From: Halobellus rarus
GTDB taxonomy: Archaea > Halobacteriota > Halobacteria > Halobacteriales > Haloferacaceae
NCBI RefSeq assembly: GCF_024494595.1
Contig: NZ_JANHDI010000008.1
Location: 1 to 64,000 of the forward strand
Length of the DNA: 64,000 nucleotides
Direction of reading: 5' to 3'
The notes under the pieces were generated by a model. The model did no database searches, had not been told where the DNA came from, and worked only from the letters and a program-made list of their open reading frames with translations. Both the position numbers and the translations under genes were made by a program. Positions 2,352 through 63,444 of the stretch are shown here, in pieces (within the stretch, counting starts at the first letter, position 1; each line of letters opens with the position of its first letter).

Positions 2352-2654
2352 TCACTCGATCAGAAACCGCGGCGGGGCGATCCGCTCGGAACGACACTCC
2401 GGGCACCGCGAGGGATCGTTCAGCGGGTCGTCGAACCCGTCGAAACCGCACGCGCGACACTCCGGTGGTGCGACCAGGAACCGCTCGCCGGAGTCGTCGC
2501 TCTCGACCGTCTGTGAGACGTGCTCGACGTGTCTGTAGACTGCCGATTTCGGCACGCCGACGGCCGTCGACAGTTCCGCGGCGTCGTGTGGCTCCGTCCG
2601 AAGCGCGTCCGCGATCCGCTGTCGCGTCGTCGCCTCCTCGCCCGGTTCGGACAT
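2352..2654 (-). CDS. HTH transcriptional regulator with C-terminal zinc ribbon
   Basis: 100-residue protein of the archaeal type that joins a winged-helix-like N-terminus (residues about 10-50, SAVYRHVEHV recognition region) to a zinc ribbon with Cys66/Cys69 and Cys84/Cys87. It is probably a DNA-binding regulator; targets are unknown. It converges on the peptide-transporter operon, with 12 nt between stop codons. A TATA-like box about 28 nt before the ATG supports a leaderless start at 2654. Confidence 0.85.
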   Translation of the reverse strand: MSEPGEEATTRQRIADALRTEPHDAAELSTAVGVPKSAVYRHVEHVSQTVESDDSGERFLVAPPECRACGFDGFDDPLNDPSRCPECRSERIAPPRFLIE

Positions 2655-2677
2655 ACTCGTAGAAGCGGAGTCGAGGC

Positions 2678-2687
2678 GTATATATTG
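2678..2687 (-). promoter_or_regulatory. TATA-like box for the HTH/zinc-ribbon gene
   Basis: The AT-only core TATATAT lies about 28 nt upstream of the ATG at 2654 in GC-rich surroundings. This spacing puts the transcription start at or next to the start codon. Confidence 0.6.
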
Positions 2688-2843
2688 TCGGCTCCGATGG
2701 AGTGGTCCGGGGGTCGGTTTCGACGACCTCCTCCCGGTGCGGCGATGGTCTCCGGACTTCGATCCCGATTCGCTCCGTCGTTTGTCCGTGTCGGAGTCCC
2801 GTTATGGGAAACACACTTGACACTCCGTTCAGTGAGTACTCGT

Positions 2844-3803
2844 ATGAAGGCAGTCGTCCTCGCAGGCGGGTACGCGACGCGTATGTGGCCGATCACCAAA
2901 GACCGGCCGAAGATGTTCCTCCCGGTCGGCGACGGCACAGTCATCGACATCATCTTCGAGGACCTCGAGGCCGACGACCGGGTCGACGAGGTGTTCGTGA
3001 GCACGAACGAGCGCTTCGCGGAGGCGTTCGAGACGTTCATCTCGGAGTCCCCCTACGAGAAGCCGACCCTCTCGGTCGAGGAGACCGTCGAAGAGAACGA
3101 GAAGTTCGGTGTCGTCGGCGCGCTCGCCCAGCTCATCGACCGCGAGGGCGTCGAGGACGATCTCGTGGTCATCGCCGGCGACAACCTGCTCTCCTTCGAC
3201 GTCTCGGAGTTCGTCGACTTCTTCGAATCGAGCGGGACTCCGTGTCTCGCCGCCTACGACGTGGGCTCGAAGGAGCGCGCGAGATCCTACGGACTCGTCC
3301 AACTGGAGGGCGACCGCGTGGTCGACTTCCAGGAGAAGCCCGACGACCCACAGAGCACGCTCGTTTCGATCGCCTGCTACGCGTTCCCCGCGGAGACGCT
3401 CCCGGACTTCGAGACGTACCTCGAAGACGGCAACAACCCCGACGAACCCGGCTGGTTTATGAAGTGGCTCCAAGACCGCGGCACGGTGAAGGCGTTCACG
3501 TTCGACGGCGCGTGGTTCGACATCGGGACGCCCGAGAGCTACCTCGAGGCGGTATCGTGGCACCTCGACGGCGGGACGTTCGTCCACGACGACGCCACGG
3601 TCGAGAACTCCGAACTCGGCTCGAACGTCCACGTGATGGCGGGCGCGTCAGTGACGGATTCCCGCCTCGAACGGTCGGTGATCTTTTCGGACGCCACCAT
3701 CCGCGACGCCGACCTCCGCAACACCATCGTCGACGAGGACACCCACATCGAGAACCTCGACCTCTCGAACGCGCTGATCGGCGCGCACTCGCACCTGGAG
3801 TGA
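2844..3803 (+). CDS. Sugar nucleotidyltransferase (glucose-1-phosphate thymidylyl-/uridylyltransferase type)
   Basis: Makes an NDP-sugar from a sugar 1-phosphate for glycan or surface-polysaccharide synthesis. The 319-residue protein starts with the nucleotide-binding loop LAGGYATRM and has KPMF-type (KMFLPV) and DIGTPESYLEA motifs. After about residue 250 it carries hexapeptide-like repeats (SNVHVMAGASV and following) forming a short left-handed beta-helix tail. Start chosen at 2844 because the P-loop begins seven residues later; longer forms add arginine-rich shadow sequence. A 23-bp tandem array begins exactly at its stop codon. Confidence 0.92.
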   Translation: MKAVVLAGGYATRMWPITKDRPKMFLPVGDGTVIDIIFEDLEADDRVDEVFVSTNERFAEAFETFISESPYEKPTLSVEETVEENEKFGVVGALAQLIDREGVEDDLVVIAGDNLLSFDVSEFVDFFESSGTPCLAAYDVGSKERARSYGLVQLEGDRVVDFQEKPDDPQSTLVSIACYAFPAETLPDFETYLEDGNNPDEPGWFMKWLQDRGTVKAFTFDGAWFDIGTPESYLEAVSWHLDGGTFVHDDATVENSELGSNVHVMAGASVTDSRLERSVIFSDATIRDADLRNTIVDEDTHIENLDLSNALIGAHSHLE

Positions 3804-3909
3804 CGGGACGATGTCGCTTGGAGTGACGGGACGATGTCGCTTGGAGTGACGGGACGATGTCGCTTGGAGTGACGGGACGATGTCGCTTGGAATGACGGGA
3901 CGATGTCGC
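3801..3909 (+). repeat. 23-bp tandem repeat array starting at a stop codon
   Basis: Units begin at 3801, 3824, 3847, 3870 and 3893. The first four are identical and the fifth differs at the end and is cut short. The first three bases of the first unit are the TGA of the sugar nucleotidyltransferase gene, and the bases before it (CTGGAG) resemble the unit end (CTTGGAG), so the array copies the 3' end of the gene. It fills the gap to the convergent cupin gene. There are no spacers, so it is not a CRISPR. Confidence 0.95.
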
Positions 3910-4340: not shown

Positions 4341-4410
4341 ACCGCCACTTCGGCAGAGATCGGTATAGTCGACTGGGTTGGGTTCGCAACGTCTTCTTTT
4401 CCCGGCTACC

Positions 4411-4459
4411 GAGGCCGGGCGTCACTCGCCGAGCCGGGCGTCACTTCCCGAGCCGGGCG
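4411..4459 (-). repeat. 19-bp degenerate tandem repeat at the dph6 3' end
   Basis: The core GCCGGGCGT recurs at 4414, 4433 and 4452 (period 19). The stop codon of the Dph6 gene (4441-4443) lies within a unit, so the last codons plus stop are repeated beyond the gene. Confidence 0.8.
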
Positions 4460-5166
4460 TCCGTCACCTGGATGTGTCCGCGCGTCCCCTCCCACACCGT
4501 CTCGTACGCCAGTCCGATCGGGCGATCCATGTGCGGTCCGTCGGTGACGAGCGTCTCGAACTCGCCGCCTTCCCCCAGAACGTGCACGCCGTACTCCTCG
4601 TTGAGCGCGAGCAACTCGCCGAGCGCGTCGGCGTCGAGCGTCCGTCCCAGCCACGATTCGTCGAGGCCGCGGGCGGCCACCTGGACGATCCGGATCTCGA
4701 AACCGGCGTCGAGCATCTCCTCGGCTAACTCCTGTGGGTCGCGCTGCCACAGCGGCGCGAAGAGATCGATTCCCAGTCGGTCGCACATCCCGCGGATCCG
4801 CGAGGTCTGGAACTCGCTTTCGACGGCCCCCGCCGTGACACCGGCGATGCCGCCGTCGAGTTGCGAGTCGAGTTCGACGAGCGCGGCTTCGAGCGGCTCC
4901 AACTCCCTGTCGCCCTGTGCGCCCGCGTCGTCGACATCGGCCGCGTTGAGGTTACCCGGCTCCACCTCGATGAGATCGATCCCGATACTCTCTGCGGCGA
5001 GGCCGGCCAGCCGCGTCTCGGGGACGTGGTACATGTACGAGTCTTCGCCGGGGTGGACTGTGAGGAGGTGCGAGACGTTCAGCCCTTCTTCGAGCGCTCG
5101 GTAGAGCGCCCACGAGGAGTCCTTGCCGCCGGAGAAGAGGCTCACCCAGGAACCGGAGTCAGTCAT
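4441..5166 (-). CDS. dph6: Diphthine--ammonia ligase (Dph6 family)
   Basis: Catalyses the last, ATP-dependent amidation in making diphthamide on translation factor aEF2. The N-type PP-loop SGGKDS is at residues 12-17 and the family motifs GEGGEFETLV and E(T)VWEG lie in the C-terminal half. The 241-residue length fits archaeal members. Start chosen at 5166 (MTDSGSW) because the PP-loop follows directly; a start at 5193 would add nine residues. Dph2 of the same pathway is at 41535-42569. The product name rests on family membership. Confidence 0.88.
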   Translation of the reverse strand: MTDSGSWVSLFSGGKDSSWALYRALEEGLNVSHLLTVHPGEDSYMYHVPETRLAGLAAESIGIDLIEVEPGNLNAADVDDAGAQGDRELEPLEAALVELDSQLDGGIAGVTAGAVESEFQTSRIRGMCDRLGIDLFAPLWQRDPQELAEEMLDAGFEIRIVQVAARGLDESWLGRTLDADALGELLALNEEYGVHVLGEGGEFETLVTDGPHMDRPIGLAYETVWEGTRGHIQVTDARLGK

Positions 5167-11549: not shown

Positions 11550-13451
11550 ATGGGAAGGGTTGTCGCACTGGGTTTAGTGAGCTTCCTCTTTGTCGCGCTG
11601 ATGTTCACGGGCGGGGTATCTGGCACCTCTCTCTCGAATCCAGACGTTGCGGACGACGGGCAATTCGAGTCCACGGAAAGCCATCCGGGCAACGTGGCTG
11701 TCTTTGATTTCTCCCTGCACCAGTTCCAGCAAATTGACGAAGAGGAAGAGGACGAGGAAGAGGAAGAGGAAGAGGAAGAGGAAGAGGACGAGGAAGAGGA
11801 AGAGGAAGAGGAAGAGGAAGAGGACGAGGAAGAGGAAGAGGAAGAGGACGAGGACGAGGAAGAGGAAGAGGACGAGGAAGAGGAAGAGGACGAGGAAGAG
11901 GAAGAGGACGAGGAAGAGGAAGAGGACGAGGAAGAGGAAGAGGAAGAGGAAGAGGAAGAGGAAGAGGAAGAGGAAGAGGAAGAGGAAGAGGAAGAGGAAG
12001 AGGAAGAGGAAGAGGACGAGGAAGAGGAAGAGGAAGAGGACGAGGAAGAGGAAGAGGACGAGGAAGAGGAAGAGGAAGAGGACGAGGAAGAGGACGAGGA
12101 AGAGGACGAGGAAGAGGACGAGGAAGAGGACGAGGAAGAGGAAGAGGAAGAGGACGAGGAAGAGGAAGAGGACGAGGAAGAGGAAGAGGACGAGGAAGAG
12201 GACGAGGAAGAGGACGAGGAAGAGGACGAGGAAGAGGAAGAGGAAGAGGACGAGGAAGAGGAAGAGGACGAGGAAGAGGACGAGGACGAGGAAGAGGACG
12301 AGGAAGAGGACGAGGAAGAGGACGAGGAAGAGGAGAAAACAACTGCTACCTCGACACCAACGCCAACTGCAACCTCAACTCCGGCACCAACGCCAACACC
12401 GACCGCCACTGCAACGCCAATCGCAGCTCGGTCACCAACCCCGACCGCGACCCCAACGTCGACTGCTACCCCGACCGCCGCCCCGATCGCGATGCTAACG
12501 TCGACTGCCACCCCGACTGCCGCTCCGACCGCGACGCCAACGCCGACTGCCGCCCCGGCCGCGACGTCACCACCAACGTCAACCGCTCCCCCGACAGCAA
12601 CGCCGACATCACCGACCGCCACCACAACGCCGACATCACCAACCGCCACCGCGACGCCGACGGCCATAGCGACCAGCTCTCCCTCGAGGAACCCAGCACC
12701 GGCGGCTGCCTCCGAGGAAACGAGATTCAATACGGTAGTTGCGACACTCAACAACACGCTGATTACCGCAGGAGAGAGCGTACAGATAGCGTTGCAGGTC
12801 GAGAACGCCGGCGAGGAGGACGGCACGTTCCGAGCGGGTCTGGCTGTGAACTCCGAGACGGTCGACTCGAAGTCAGTCATCGTCGAGGCGGGCGAGACCG
12901 AGACAATAGTGTTCGAATATCGATTCGATGAACCGGGCGAGTACGATATCGCCATCGCGGATACCTCAGTCGGCACGCTGACCGTGACCGCCGCAAGCGA
13001 CGACGGGACGGTTGCACCCCGGCCCGGCGATGATACCGACGGAACCGGACCTATCGAGGTCACCGAGGCCACAGCACTGGCCGATTGGATCAAGAAAGGC
13101 TACGATACCACCGTGAGAGCGACGGTCGTGAACACGGCAAACCGGACGGCGAACCGGACTCTCACAGTGACCGTCGATGGCCGGCCGGTCGCAACGGAGA
13201 CCGTGGCGCTACGCCCCCAAGAGCGCGGCGTGGTGGCTATCGAATTCGAAGCCGTCGACGGGACAGTCGCGGTCGAGGGCGTTGACGCGGGCCGGATCAG
13301 TGTCAGTGAGCGCCCCGGAGACGTCGCAACGGAAACGGACGACGCCGCGGGAGGCGCTGGGCTGGGAATGCCCGTCGGCGTCGTCGTCGTCGCGGTCGTC
13401 ACGACTCTCGCCAGTGTAGCTGTTTTTGTCGAGCGGGGAAACGGCTCGTAG
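11550..13451 (+). CDS. Secreted, membrane-anchored protein with poly-Glu/Asp tract and CARDB-like domains
   Basis: 633 residues. A signal peptide ([22 protein letters not shown]) is followed by a short linker, then a tract of about 200 residues that are only Glu or Asp (about 63-262), then a Thr/Pro/Ala-rich linker to about residue 390 that could be O-glycosylated. Two beta-sandwich segments resembling CARDB/DUF11 adhesion-type domains follow (about 391-480 and 505-590), and one C-terminal hydrophobic helix (about 606-628) anchors it. The tract comes from a hexamer DNA repeat. It probably acts at the cell surface, perhaps in cation binding or adhesion; that role is inference. Confidence 0.85.
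11736..12343 (+). repeat. Hexamer repeat GA(A/C)GAG, about 100 copies
   Basis: The + strand has no T for 608 nt. Almost the whole tract is GAAGAG or GACGAG: every second codon is GAG, and the other is GAA or GAC. The order of GAA and GAC forms longer imperfect repeats, with DEEE blocks near 12100-12140 and 12190-12230. It encodes the Glu/Asp tract. A long serine-coding frame on the opposite strand is a by-product. Confidence 0.97.
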
Positions 13452-21972: not shown

Positions 21973-22445
21973 CGTCCGAACTCCAGTCCGACGAACTGGC
22001 CGGCGTCGTCGACCTCTTCGGCGCGCTCACGCCCGTCGAACTCGAACGCGCGCTGAGCGAACTGGCGTTCAAGCAAGGGTCCGACGTCGACGACGCCGCG
22101 CTCTCCGACGCCGTCGAGGACGCGGTGGCGTCGTACGCGTTGGTTCGGTACGAGAAGGACGGTGAGACGCTCTTGATCCCGGGACCGGCGGCGTTCCCGA
22201 CGCTCCCGGAGAACGCGGAGGATCTGCCGCACATCCTCGACGTGTCCGCTCGCGATATCGACCGAGAGGCCGCCGCACAGGCGGTCGCGGAACGGCTTCG
22301 GACCGAGGCGGCACGCGCCGTCACCGACGGGGACGAGGAGTCGATGCGGCGACTGTTGGACGTGACGTACGACGTCGCCGTCTGGTCTGCAGCGGTCGAC
22401 GTCGACGACATTCAGGCGCGACTCGACGACGAACTGGACACATGA
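21969..22445 (+). CDS. Conserved haloarchaeal protein, function unknown
   Basis: 158-residue acidic, mainly helical protein with a possible winged-helix-like first half (ALTPVELERALSELAFKQG). No catalytic or metal motif. GTG start in a GTGA overlap with the glycosyltransferase, so it is translationally coupled to it and may work with it. Its 3' end is copied several times in a 23-bp tandem array. Confidence 0.75.
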   Translation: MTSELQSDELAGVVDLFGALTPVELERALSELAFKQGSDVDDAALSDAVEDAVASYALVRYEKDGETLLIPGPAAFPTLPENAEDLPHILDVSARDIDREAAAQAVAERLRTEAARAVTDGDEESMRRLLDVTYDVAVWSAAVDVDDIQARLDDELDT

Positions 22446-22515
22446 CCGACGACGAACTGGCCGCGTGATCCACGACGAACTGGCCGCGTGATCCACGACG
22501 AACTGGCCGCGTGGC
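22425..22515 (+). repeat. 23-bp tandem repeat array over a gene 3' end
   Basis: The core GAACTGG recurs at 22431, 22454, 22477 and 22500 (period 23). The first copy is the coding end of the gene stopping at 22445; the second and third each contain another in-unit TGA. The last three units are nearly identical; the coding copy differs just after the core. Confidence 0.93.
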
Positions 22516-24744: not shown

Positions 24745-25635
24745 TTATGTGCGTTCCGCTTGGGGCACACGTTGTTCGTACCCGCGCAGGGCACCCTGCT
24801 TCAATTCGCGGGCCTTCTCCTCGAGTCGTCCGGCGACTGTCTCCGCAGGCTCCCCCGCTTTTGCGCCCTCCGCGACGATGTCGACGAGCGCGCTCCCGAC
24901 GATGATCCCGTCCGCCCCCCCGGCGACGATCCGCTCGGCGTGCTCGCCGGTCTTGATCCCGAACCCGACCGCCTTCGGGACGTCGTAGTCGGCGAGGCGG
25001 TCGAGGCTCTCCTCTGTCTGCCCGGAGACGTCCTCCTGCGCGCCGGTGACGCCCAGGCGTGCCTGCACGTAGACGTATCCGGACACCTGCGACATGATCC
25101 GCTCCAGTCTGTCGCCGCGGGTCGTCGGCGCGACGATGAACACGAGGTCGAGGCCGAACTCGTCGCAGGCCTCTCGGAGCGGGTCGGCCTCCTCGGCGGG
25201 GAGGTCGGGGACGACGAAGCCCGAGAGCCCGACTTCGGCGGCGCGCTCGACGAACGGCCGGGGGCCCTGCTCGGAGCCGTACTGGTAGATCAGGTTGTAG
25301 TACGTCATACACACCAGCGGCACGTCGACGTCCAGGTCCTCGACGAACTCGAAGAAGCGCTCGGGCGTCATCCCGCCCTCCAGGGACCGCACGACGGCGC
25401 TCTGGATCGTCGGCCCCTCCGCGATCGGTTCCGAGAAGGGCAGGCCGAGTTCGATGACGTCCGCGCCGCCGCGTTCGAGGGCCTCCACGTATTCGAGCGA
25501 GGACTCGTAGTCGGGGTCGCCCGCTGCGAGGTAGGGGACGAACGCCGGGCCGTCGGCGAAGGCCGCTTCGAGGTCCGGGTTGCGGACGGGGTCGGACCCG
25601 GATTCGCCGCTCATCTCAGATCCTTCGTCGCCCAT
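24745..25635 (-). CDS. trpA: Tryptophan synthase alpha chain
   Basis: Cleaves indole-3-glycerol phosphate to indole and glyceraldehyde 3-phosphate. The 296-residue TIM barrel has the catalytic Glu in VIELGLPFS. The motif that normally reads FSDPLADGP reads FSEPIAEGP here, so the usual Asp60 is Glu. The glycine-rich phosphate-binding loop [11 protein letters not shown] is present. The start at 25635 lies 1 nt after the trpB stop; Met at 25614 is an alternative giving 289 residues. Confidence 0.95.
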
Positions 25636-25636
25636 C

Positions 25637-26884
25637 TCAGATCCCCCCCGAGAACGCCGCCATCGACGGGGCGGCCTCGATGTCGCGCTTCTCGGTCTCC
25701 TCGATGACGGTCTCTAAGTCCTTGTCGCCGCGGCCGGAGACGTTCACGAGGACGGTCTCGCCGAGGTCCTCGTAGTGCTCTTCGAGGTAGCCGAACGCGT
25801 GCGCCGTCTCCAGCGCGGGGATGATCCCCTCCAGCTGGGAGAGTCGGTGGAACGCCTCCAACGCGCCGTCGTCGTCGACGTTGACGGCGTTCACGCGATC
25901 GTCGTCGACGAGGCGGGCGAGTTCGGGGCCGACGCCCGCGTAGTCGAGGCCGGCGGAGACGCTGTGACTCTCCATAATCTGGCCGTCGGAGTCCTGCAAC
26001 AGCTTCGTCCGCGCGCCGTGGAGGACGCCCTCGTCCCCGGTCGACAGCGACGCCGAGTTTGGTGCGACGCCGGCCTCCTCGTCGACTTCGAGGGTCGAGC
26101 CGCCGGCCTCGACGGCGTACAGCCCCACCGACTCGTCGTCGACGAAGTTCGCGAACGCGCCCATCGTGTTCGAGCCGCCGCCGGCGCAGGCGAGTACCGA
26201 ATCGGGGAGCCCGCCGGTCTTCTCGCGGAGTTGCTCTCGGGCCTCCTCCGAAATCACGGCCTGGAAGTCCCGAACCATCGAGGGGAAGGGATGCGGGCCG
26301 ACGACCGAGCCGATGACGTAGTGGGTGTCCTCGACGTTCGTCGCCCAGTCGCGCATCGTCTCGGAGATGGCCTCCTTCAGCGTGCCCCGGCCGGTGGTGA
26401 CGGGATTGACCGCCGAACCGTTGAGCCGCATCCGGAAGACGTTCGGCCGCTGGCGGTTGATGTCGCGCTCGCCCATGTAGATCTCACACGGCATATCTAG
26501 GTGGGCGGCGGCCATCGCGGTCGCGGTACCGTGCTGGCCCGCGCCGGTCTCGGCGACGATGCGCTCTTTACCCATGTACTTCGCCAGGAGGACCTGCCCG
26601 AGCGCGTTGTTGAGCTTGTGCGCGCCGCCGTGCAGCAGGTCCTCGCGCTTCAGATAGACCTCGCGGCCGTACCGCTCGGAGAGCCGCTCGGCGTGCTGTG
26701 TCGGCGTCGGTCGCCCGCCGAAGTCCCGCAGCCGGCTCCGGAACTCGTCCATGAAGCCGTCCTCGTTCTCCAGGACGTACCGCTCGTAGGCGTCCGTCAG
26801 CTCCTCGATCGCCGGCATCAGCGCCTCCGGCACGTACTGTCCGCCGTACTCGCCGAACTTCCCGTCCGCGTACTGTTGTGTCAT
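25637..26884 (-). CDS. trpB: Tryptophan synthase beta chain
   Basis: PLP enzyme that joins indole with serine to make tryptophan, in complex with TrpA. 415 residues. The PLP lysine lies in HGGAHKLNN, the catalytic Glu region in ETGAGQHG, the phosphate-binding loop is [10 protein letters not shown] and the C-terminal GRGDKD is present. It overlaps trpC by 4 bp and abuts trpA. It belongs to the TrpB1 type, which pairs with TrpA. Confidence 0.98.
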
Positions 26885-36421: not shown

Positions 36422-36477
36422 CCGGGACTCGGCGTCGTTTCGTCTCCCCTCCGCTCACCGCGGCGTCGTTCGGCTAC

Positions 36478-36530
36478 TCACCGACGTGTCATCCGCACGC
36501 TCACCGACGTGTCATCCGCACGCTCACCGA
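36478..36530 (-). repeat. 23-bp tandem repeat at the glycosyltransferase 3' end
   Basis: TCACCGACG recurs at 36478, 36501 and 36524 (period 23); the first two units are identical. The TCA at 36524 is the reverse complement of the stop codon of the minus-strand gene, and each unit brings another TGA. Confidence 0.93.
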
Positions 36531-37426
36531 CGGTCGTACTTCGCGACCGCCCGGTCGGCCCGCTTCGAGCAGCCGTGGGGGTTGCGCGCGGGCGTCCGAT
36601 CGCGCGCTCGGGCGACCAGACCGTCCGACCACCCCGTCGCGATCCCGACGACGACGTCCCGTCCGTTCCCGAACCACCCCGTCGGTGACGTGTCGCCGGC
36701 GACGACGTCCCGGGCGGCGGAGACGGCGTCCGATCCCGCGTGCGAGGCGATACGGCGGAAGACCGTCGGACGGACCCCGTAGTTCTTCACGAGCCGGTAG
36801 GCGAGCGCGCGGTACTTCCACTCGTGGTCCCGTTCGTCGACCCCACCGTCGGCCTCGTACTCCGTGCGGACGCACAGTTCCGACTCCCAGGCGACGTCGT
36901 GTCCGAGCCCCGCCAGGCGGTGTGCGGCGTCGCGAGCGCCGCCGGTTTCGAGGTACTCGTCGAACCCGTCGAGGTCGTCCAGGGCCTCGGCGCGTAACGC
37001 GACGTTGCCGCCGTTGAAGTACGTGACCTCGCGGTTTCGGATCGTGCGCGTCTCCGGCGCCGTCGTCGTCATTCCCGCCGGCAGCGTCTCGTGGACCGGC
37101 CCCGTCACGACCGGCGCGCGTTCGATGCCCGCCTCGATGGCGTCCGTCCAGGTCTCCTCGATCGCGAGGTCGTGGCGCAGAAAGGCGACCACGTCGCCCG
37201 AGGCGGCGTGGATTCCCGCGTTTCGGGAGACGTTCAGCGTCCGGTCTGACACCTCCACGAGCACGTCGACGTCGTCTCGGTCGCGGACCATTCCGGTCGT
37301 CCCGTCCGCCGAGGGGCCGTTGACGACGACGACCTCGGCGTCGGGCGCGTTCGCGGCCAGCACGTCCAGGGTGGCCGCGAGGTGATCCCGTCTGTTCAGT
37401 GTCGGGATCACTACCGAGAGCTCCAT
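36524..37426 (-). CDS. Glycosyltransferase family 2
   Basis: 300-residue GT-A enzyme. N-terminal SVVIPTLNRRDHL, NGPSADGT and SRNAGIHAASGD are the donor-binding motifs. The usual DxD is replaced by HDLAIEE, and FNGGNVALRAEAL is the acceptor-loop motif. Likely roles are protein N-glycosylation or surface polysaccharide; donor and acceptor are unknown. The C-terminal 60 residues are basic. The stop codon lies in a 23-bp tandem repeat. Confidence 0.88.
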   Translation of the reverse strand: MELSVVIPTLNRRDHLAATLDVLAANAPDAEVVVVNGPSADGTTGMVRDRDDVDVLVEVSDRTLNVSRNAGIHAASGDVVAFLRHDLAIEETWTDAIEAGIERAPVVTGPVHETLPAGMTTTAPETRTIRNREVTYFNGGNVALRAEALDDLDGFDEYLETGGARDAAHRLAGLGHDVAWESELCVRTEYEADGGVDERDHEWKYRALAYRLVKNYGVRPTVFRRIASHAGSDAVSAARDVVAGDTSPTGWFGNGRDVVVGIATGWSDGLVARARDRTPARNPHGCSKRADRAVAKYDRR

Positions 37427-45514: not shown

Positions 45515-45562
45515 TCACGCGACAAATGGGCCGCAGGATCACGCGACAAATGGGCCGCAGGA
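45515..45562 (+). repeat. 24-bp tandem duplication upstream of the YlbF gene
   Basis: Two identical copies at 45515-45538 and 45539-45562, each containing GCGACAAATGGGCC. They lie 66 nt before the YlbF start, in the divergent intergenic region. Confidence 0.95.
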
Positions 45563-52314: not shown

Positions 52315-52504
52315 GACCGTGTTCTCGCGCCGCGGTCACCTCGCTACCGGCGCGGCGACTCGCAGCGAGGTCGCCGACTCGCGAGGAGACCGCCGGTGCG
52401 CCCCGTGGGAACGCGACCCACAAATTTCTATGTGTATGTCTACCTTACGCCGAATAGACGTTAATCATTGTTGCTTATTGCGTGATAGATTGGGCAAAAA
52501 TGGG

Positions 52505-52805: not shown

Positions 52806-52997
52806 GCCCGGGGAACCGCCGACGCCGGCAATCGCTCGCGTCGAGGCGTCCGACCGCAACCGATTTATCCCTCCTTCTCGACCGTTCTGACGCCTCTCGA
52901 CGCTCTCGACGCCGCCAGCTATGATTCACGCCTCTCTGCACTCAGTGCGCGCACCGTTCCGTAAGCGAGCCTCTCGTCCCCGAACGGTTTCCAATTC

Positions 52998-53456: not shown

Positions 53457-53634
53457 TCCCGAGGGCGACCCTCGCCAGATCGGGCGTCCTGGACCGATCG
53501 GGCGTCTGAGACCGCCCGGACGTCCGGGAGCGCGGTGATCTCCGGCTCGTCGCACACCACCTCTCGGGGCCGCTTTGCGGCGGTCCGGACGCGCCCTACC
53601 AACAATTAAGACGGACCCTCCCGATCATCGGAGT

Positions 53635-55700: not shown

Positions 55701-55770
55701 CGGCGGCGATTCACGGACGGAGGCTTAATCAGTTGCGAATCTCCCGGACCGTCTCCAGCGTCCTCCGCGG

Positions 55771-55825
55771 TCGATCGCTCACCCGCTGCCGTCGACTGGT
55801 CACCCACCGCCGTCGATCGGCCGCC
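55771..55825 (-). repeat. 21-bp degenerate tandem repeat at a GT4 gene 3' end
   Basis: Units start at 55771, 55792 and 55813; copies differ at about a quarter of positions. The stop codon of the upstream GT4 gene (55800-55802) lies in the middle unit. Confidence 0.75.
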
Positions 55826-63398: not shown

Positions 63399-63442
63399 GT
63401 TGCGGACCCGCTCGTGCACCGTTGCGGACCCGTCCGTCCACC
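63399..63442 (-). repeat. 22-bp tandem duplication just after a gene 3' end
   Basis: Copies at 63399-63420 and 63421-63442 match at 19 of 22 positions. They lie 2 nt beyond the stop codon of the CPBP-like gene (63445-63447). Confidence 0.85.
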
Positions 63443-63444
63443 GC

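Follow-up and report, generated by a model that had tools for sequence, protein, structure and literature searches.

Short tandem arrays are enriched about twofold at gene 3' ends in this Halobellus genome, and we consider it likely, at a probability of about 0.8, that they are young and independent duplications made by slippage between short direct repeats. Such duplications would be kept where they are silent for the protein and would be helped by the denser seed repeats of gene ends. What appeared to be a hidden signal at gene ends would then come from a process of mutation on which a simple filter acts.

Tandem arrays at gene ends in the window

The window is the whole 64,000-nucleotide stretch of DNA that was analyzed, and its gene-end arrays are listed in Table 1. 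All six arrays that the preliminary description had placed at gene 3' ends are real, as TRF recovered six of six in the window. The stop codon was also found inside the array at five of these loci, with the exception at 63399 as it had been claimed; that array stops 1 nt short of the stop codon. The list was nevertheless incomplete, having missed the stop-crossing array at 25603-25644, the unit of which occurs once each in several relatives.

Table 1. Gene-end tandem arrays in the window, with the nucleotidyltransferase gene whose stop is crossed by the first of them
Feature	Position	Strand	Remark
NTP_transferase gene (sugar nucleotidyltransferase, GlmU-like C-terminus)	2520..3803	+	stop crossed by 3796-3909 array
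23-bp tandem array, 5.0 units, 98% match	3796..3909	+	TRF; spans nucleotidyltransferase TGA (3801-3803)
19-bp array, 2.7 units	4409..4461	-	TRF; spans stop (4441-4443) of Diphthami_syn_2 gene
23-bp array, 3.8 units	22426..22513	+	TRF; spans TGA (22443-22445) of DUF7109 gene
21-bp array, 2.0 units	25603..25644	-	TRF; spans stop (25637) of PALP-family gene
23-bp array, 2.4 perfect units (100%)	36477..36532	-	TRF; spans stop (36524-36526) of family 2 glycosyltransferase gene
21-bp array, 2.6 degenerate units (73%)	55765..55819	-	TRF; spans stop (55800-55802) of glycosyltransferase gene
22-bp array, 2.0 units (86%)	63399..63443	-	TRF; just downstream of stop (63445) of CAAX-protease-like gene

The array at the nucleotidyltransferase gene had been described as starting exactly at the TGA. 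This is off slightly, since it begins 5 nt upstream, inside the gene, and has the last Leu-Glu codons in register. Its count of four perfect units out of five is correct; four units are identical and the fifth carries two differences. Four identical units thus stand in one array of more than 50 nt, while most other arrays have two to three copies. TRF found further arrays in the window at 52356-52395, 52876-52913 and 53478-53529, which lie 22-71 nt downstream of stops, and a perfect one at 45515-45562 (two 24-bp copies) near a start.

Genome sample and comparison with chance

The genome sample comprised 1.9 Mb in stretches, about half of the 3.66-Mb Halobellus genome. Genes were called with our own program. 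Its earlier form overlooked many genes of a foreign genome (25 of 41) and gave way to a six-frame model, which is the final version; in a check on one 45-kb stretch from another haloarchaeal genus, this model found 37 of 41 annotated stops and gave no false ones. Positional tests were rerun under both start models. Two null genomes were built from codon-shuffled genes and Markov spacers. The first 1.5 Mb contained 93 arrays outside coding sequences with a score of at least 50, compared with 0-3 in the null genomes, so the arrays are not due to chance.

One 23-bp array of 3.1 units lies exactly at a contig end of this genome (G000 contig C11:1-72; locus L016:1-72). Arrays may therefore break the assembly, and longer arrays may be absent from it.

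Excess at stop codons and depletion at starts

The enrichment scan, run over about half of the genome with the window left out, found arrays enriched about twofold at stops and depleted at starts. The null model placed an ancestral footprint, consisting of one unit plus border homology, uniformly over the spacers and their edges. Against this null, 27 or 25 arrays (depending on the start model) crossed a stop where 10.8 were expected (p 5e-6 to 3e-5). A null in which whole present-day arrays were placed randomly gave 32 versus 25.6 at stops (p=0.09); it was judged to be the wrong null because arrays spread from a shorter ancestral footprint. In the same sample, stop crossings also exceeded expectation in spacers of at most 200 bp (20 versus 10.8-12.4) and in convergent spacers (10 versus 4.9). 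The density of array edges was highest from about -20 to +40 nt around stops. At starts, 3 crossings were observed for 11.2 expected, or 6 for 10.6 when extended starts were used.

Other haloarchaea showed the same direction of effect at stops but more weakly, with 10 crossings for 5.2-5.7 expected. Among exact duplications, 9 crossed a stop in the source genome for 3.7 expected (p about 0.01), whereas the pooled set gave 10 versus 6.4-7.0 (p 0.10-0.16); exact duplications in convergent spacers had no stop excess (4 versus 5.2 expected). The 3'-end pattern noticed in the window thus extends past it, with an excess of about twofold that is less than fully robust.

Protein silence and the one-unit limit

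Stop-crossing arrays rarely reach far into the gene. With the window left out, 42 of 48 entered the coding sequence by no more than one period, compared with a uniform expectation of 20.8; the proportion was 24/28 in the source genome and 11/11 in other haloarchaea. An array whose start lies at most one unit ahead of the stop leaves the protein unchanged, since the extra copies land behind the stop, and the observed limit is what a protein-silent filter predicts. Periods divisible by 3 accounted for 270 of 289 arrays within coding sequences and for 40 of 95 intergenic arrays.

The repetition of stop codons had been proposed as a safeguard of the protein end. Any such effect is only incidental; since the majority of stop-crossing periods cannot be divided by 3, the later TGAs usually fall out of frame. 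The protein is kept unchanged by the start of the array within one unit of the stop and not by the repeated stops. The one-unit limit provides a clean test for any genome, to be run ahead of functional claims about 3'-end repeats.

Age of the arrays and single-copy precursors

Orthologous sites were compared across six Halobellus genomes; even the nearest relatives belong to other species, with a DNA identity of about 90%. In 165 site comparisons, the unit was absent from 139, present as one copy in 23 and present as two or more copies in 3. The 3796-3909 array is absent from the relatives G010, G008 and G003, and the unit of the 4409-4461 array is represented in relatives by degenerate partial copies. 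A single-copy precursor was visible for two window arrays, and for most sites none was recognizable. At 22426-22513, the unit consists of the last codons of the DUF7109 gene itself (DDEL); it is a single copy in G010, the closest relative, and in G008. At the glycosyltransferase end at 36477-36532, G010 has one unit between near-identical 10-bp direct repeats.

The DUF7109 gene also ends in short repeats in Halobellus species G003 and G006, each with its own, unrelated unit. This gene end has therefore been hit at least three times.

Proposed origin by slippage between seed repeats

Extra flanking homology of at least 5 bp was found at 25 of 46 exact two-copy arrays outside coding sequences, where about 0.8% would be expected by chance. 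Such border homology is the mark left when short direct repeats slip or recombine with each other. The potential seeds of these events were counted as 7-mers repeated 15-30 bp apart, per 1000 positions. Their density was 5.9 in coding sequences, 5.6 at the ends of coding sequences, 4.8 in the 3' flank, 2.5 in the 5' flank and 3.2 in deep intergenic DNA. Gene ends are accordingly about 1.75-fold denser in seed repeats than deep spacers, a ratio near the residual stop excess. In vitro, both PolB and PolD of the archaeon Pyrococcus abyssi undergo slippage when the template carries a hairpin and short direct repeats (PMC4134008).

In the mechanism we propose, direct repeats with a length of a few to about 20 bp would become misaligned during replication or repair, and a tandem duplication of about 15-30 bp would result; once two copies were present, further expansion would be possible. 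Duplications would arise everywhere. Within genes nearly all would be purged except where the unit length is divisible by three, and duplications covering starts or promoters would be purged likewise, while a duplication across a stop that reaches at most one unit into the gene would leave the protein unchanged and survive. The greater supply of seed direct repeats at gene 3' ends than in deep intergenic DNA could explain most of the roughly twofold excess. Silent duplications and commoner seed repeats would thus suffice as causes for the 3' ends.

The suggestion that the arrays are simply slippage products tolerated at gene ends is supported by the one-unit limit, the flanking homology, the lineage specificity and the two single-copy precursors. 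From these we infer the slippage step itself and the neutrality of its products. The role of the seeds is likewise inferred, and that argument would be circular in part should the seeds include decayed arrays. One observation stands against tolerance and seeds acting alone: exact duplications, which are the youngest, should show the stop excess at least equally, and theirs was weaker, in small numbers.

Alternative explanations

The preliminary description had also suggested that the arrays act in transcript 3'-end formation, by terminating transcription or blocking readthrough, in which case selection would hold them at gene ends. The twofold excess at stops in the source genome would fit such a role, as would the motif AGATC, which has been reported in connection with termination inside coding regions of Haloferax (PMC7237163) and was present in 6 of 54 stop-crossing arrays, compared with 146 of 3637 control windows of 60 nt. 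This signal is weak among several motif tests, and inspection found AGATC in none of the six listed window arrays. A second in-frame stop within 45 nt was slightly commoner at arrays (17/54 versus 697/3637, p=0.035), which the periods divisible by 3 would produce mechanically; stop-codon usage at array genes gave nothing firm. Intergenic termination in Haloferax volcanii has the T-stretch as its established motif (PMC7237163), and the T-stretch argues in the opposite direction: TTTT was present in 0 of 54 stop-crossing arrays, and T-runs just downstream did not differ from controls (7/54 versus 710/3631, p=0.30). An apparent deficit of downstream T-runs at array genes (1/34 versus 370/1734) was gone when counting started from the array end. 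Folding was equally unremarkable, with an RNA folding energy per nt of -0.310 for arrays, -0.304 for controls and -0.310 for arrays of shuffled units, and the 54 stop-crossing arrays had no motif in common. The orthologous genes of sister species also do without arrays, and we regard a role in 3'-end formation as very improbable.

It is somewhat less improbable, and still unlikely, that stop regions are a specific hotspot of tandem duplication, for example through transcription collisions or R-loops, beyond the effects of seeds and tolerance. The persistence of the excess in short and convergent spacers and the peak of edge density close to stops are what a hotspot would produce, but the pooled exact duplications have little excess, other haloarchaea reach only 10 versus 5.2-5.7, and the seed density at gene ends already comes close to the residual excess. 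A dispersed repeat family of the MIRU kind, or remnants of mobile elements, has almost no probability left. The placement at gene junctions does recall known dispersed intergenic repeats, but the 23-bp unit of the 3796-3909 array occurs at no other locus in the 3.66-Mb genome even with 3 mismatches, units share no motif between loci, and two window units are visibly local sequence. The occurrence of arrays on both strands, with unrelated units, bears out the original reading of a local process rather than a dispersed element, and we retain slippage between direct repeats, filtered by protein silence, as the explanation.

Relation to known repeats and density in haloarchaea

We class the arrays as slippage-derived minisatellites of the VNTR kind. 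They resemble prokaryotic minisatellites and VNTR loci in their head-to-tail local copies, lineage specificity and border homology; VNTR loci vary in copy number, whereas the Halobellus arrays were compared between species only. To our knowledge, protein-silent placement across stop codons has rarely been emphasized for such loci. Mycobacterial MIRU likewise stand in tandem at gene junctions and can extend over stop codons. They form a dispersed homologous family, however, while Halobellus units are unrelated between loci.

The closest described pattern is that of the Borg tandem repeats (PMC9879509). As in Borgs, the units are recent, independent and unshared between relatives (two or more copies at 3 of 165 sites). 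Borg units are A-rich, whereas the Halobellus arrays are GC-rich, with a GC content of 0.640 compared with 0.649 in control downstream DNA. Borg repeats are carried on extrachromosomal elements and the Halobellus arrays on ordinary haloarchaeal contigs with Halobellus synteny, where they usually consist of two to three imperfect copies and are far less conspicuous. Borg arrays are defined by at least three perfect units and a length of at least 50 nt; the array at 3796-3909 has this form, while most of the others stay at two to three copies. The TAACTGA direct repeats of Beggiatoaceae (PMC4679880) share one heptamer, which forms 169 sets that for the most part lie directly upstream of starts; in Halobellus, by contrast, the unit differs from locus to locus and arrays avoid starts. 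Among the papers searched for tandem repeats of archaea and bacteria, and for repeats at stop codons, none was found that describes the pattern for haloarchaea. The earlier statement that no description was known holds to that extent, with the Borg repeats as a resembling case.

Per 10 kb of intergenic DNA, arrays outside coding sequences numbered 3.65 in the source genome, 7.2 in five Halobellus relatives and 2.2 at four further Halobellus loci. Other haloarchaeal groups had 0.5-2.6 (Haloferax 2.6, Haloarcula/Halomicrobium loci 0.55), and two alphaproteobacterial plasmids (Rhizobium, Novosphingobium) had none in 300 kb, which makes for thin controls. Array density in Halobellus could be what is novel here, judged on these thin controls. 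We propose tentatively, and as a possibility that we rate below even, that haloarchaea, Halobellus above all, have an elevated process of tandem duplication, with a preferred unit of about 15-30 bp, that continually remodels spacers and gene 3' ends and would be the chromosomal equivalent of the Borg repeats. Should the high density be confirmed, Halobellus would be suited to studying the origin of short tandem duplications in archaea.

Other repeats in the window

Two repeat-bearing open frames in the window were noted in passing. A 24-bp in-frame array (71-202; 4.2 units, 97%) lies near the 5' end of the open frame at 64-1050. The open frame at 11550-13451 (633 aa), which has no Pfam match and received no call from our gene caller, contains about 50 copies of a 12-bp repeat of the GAAGAG type (11739-12334), followed by 24-, 42- and 27-bp repeats.
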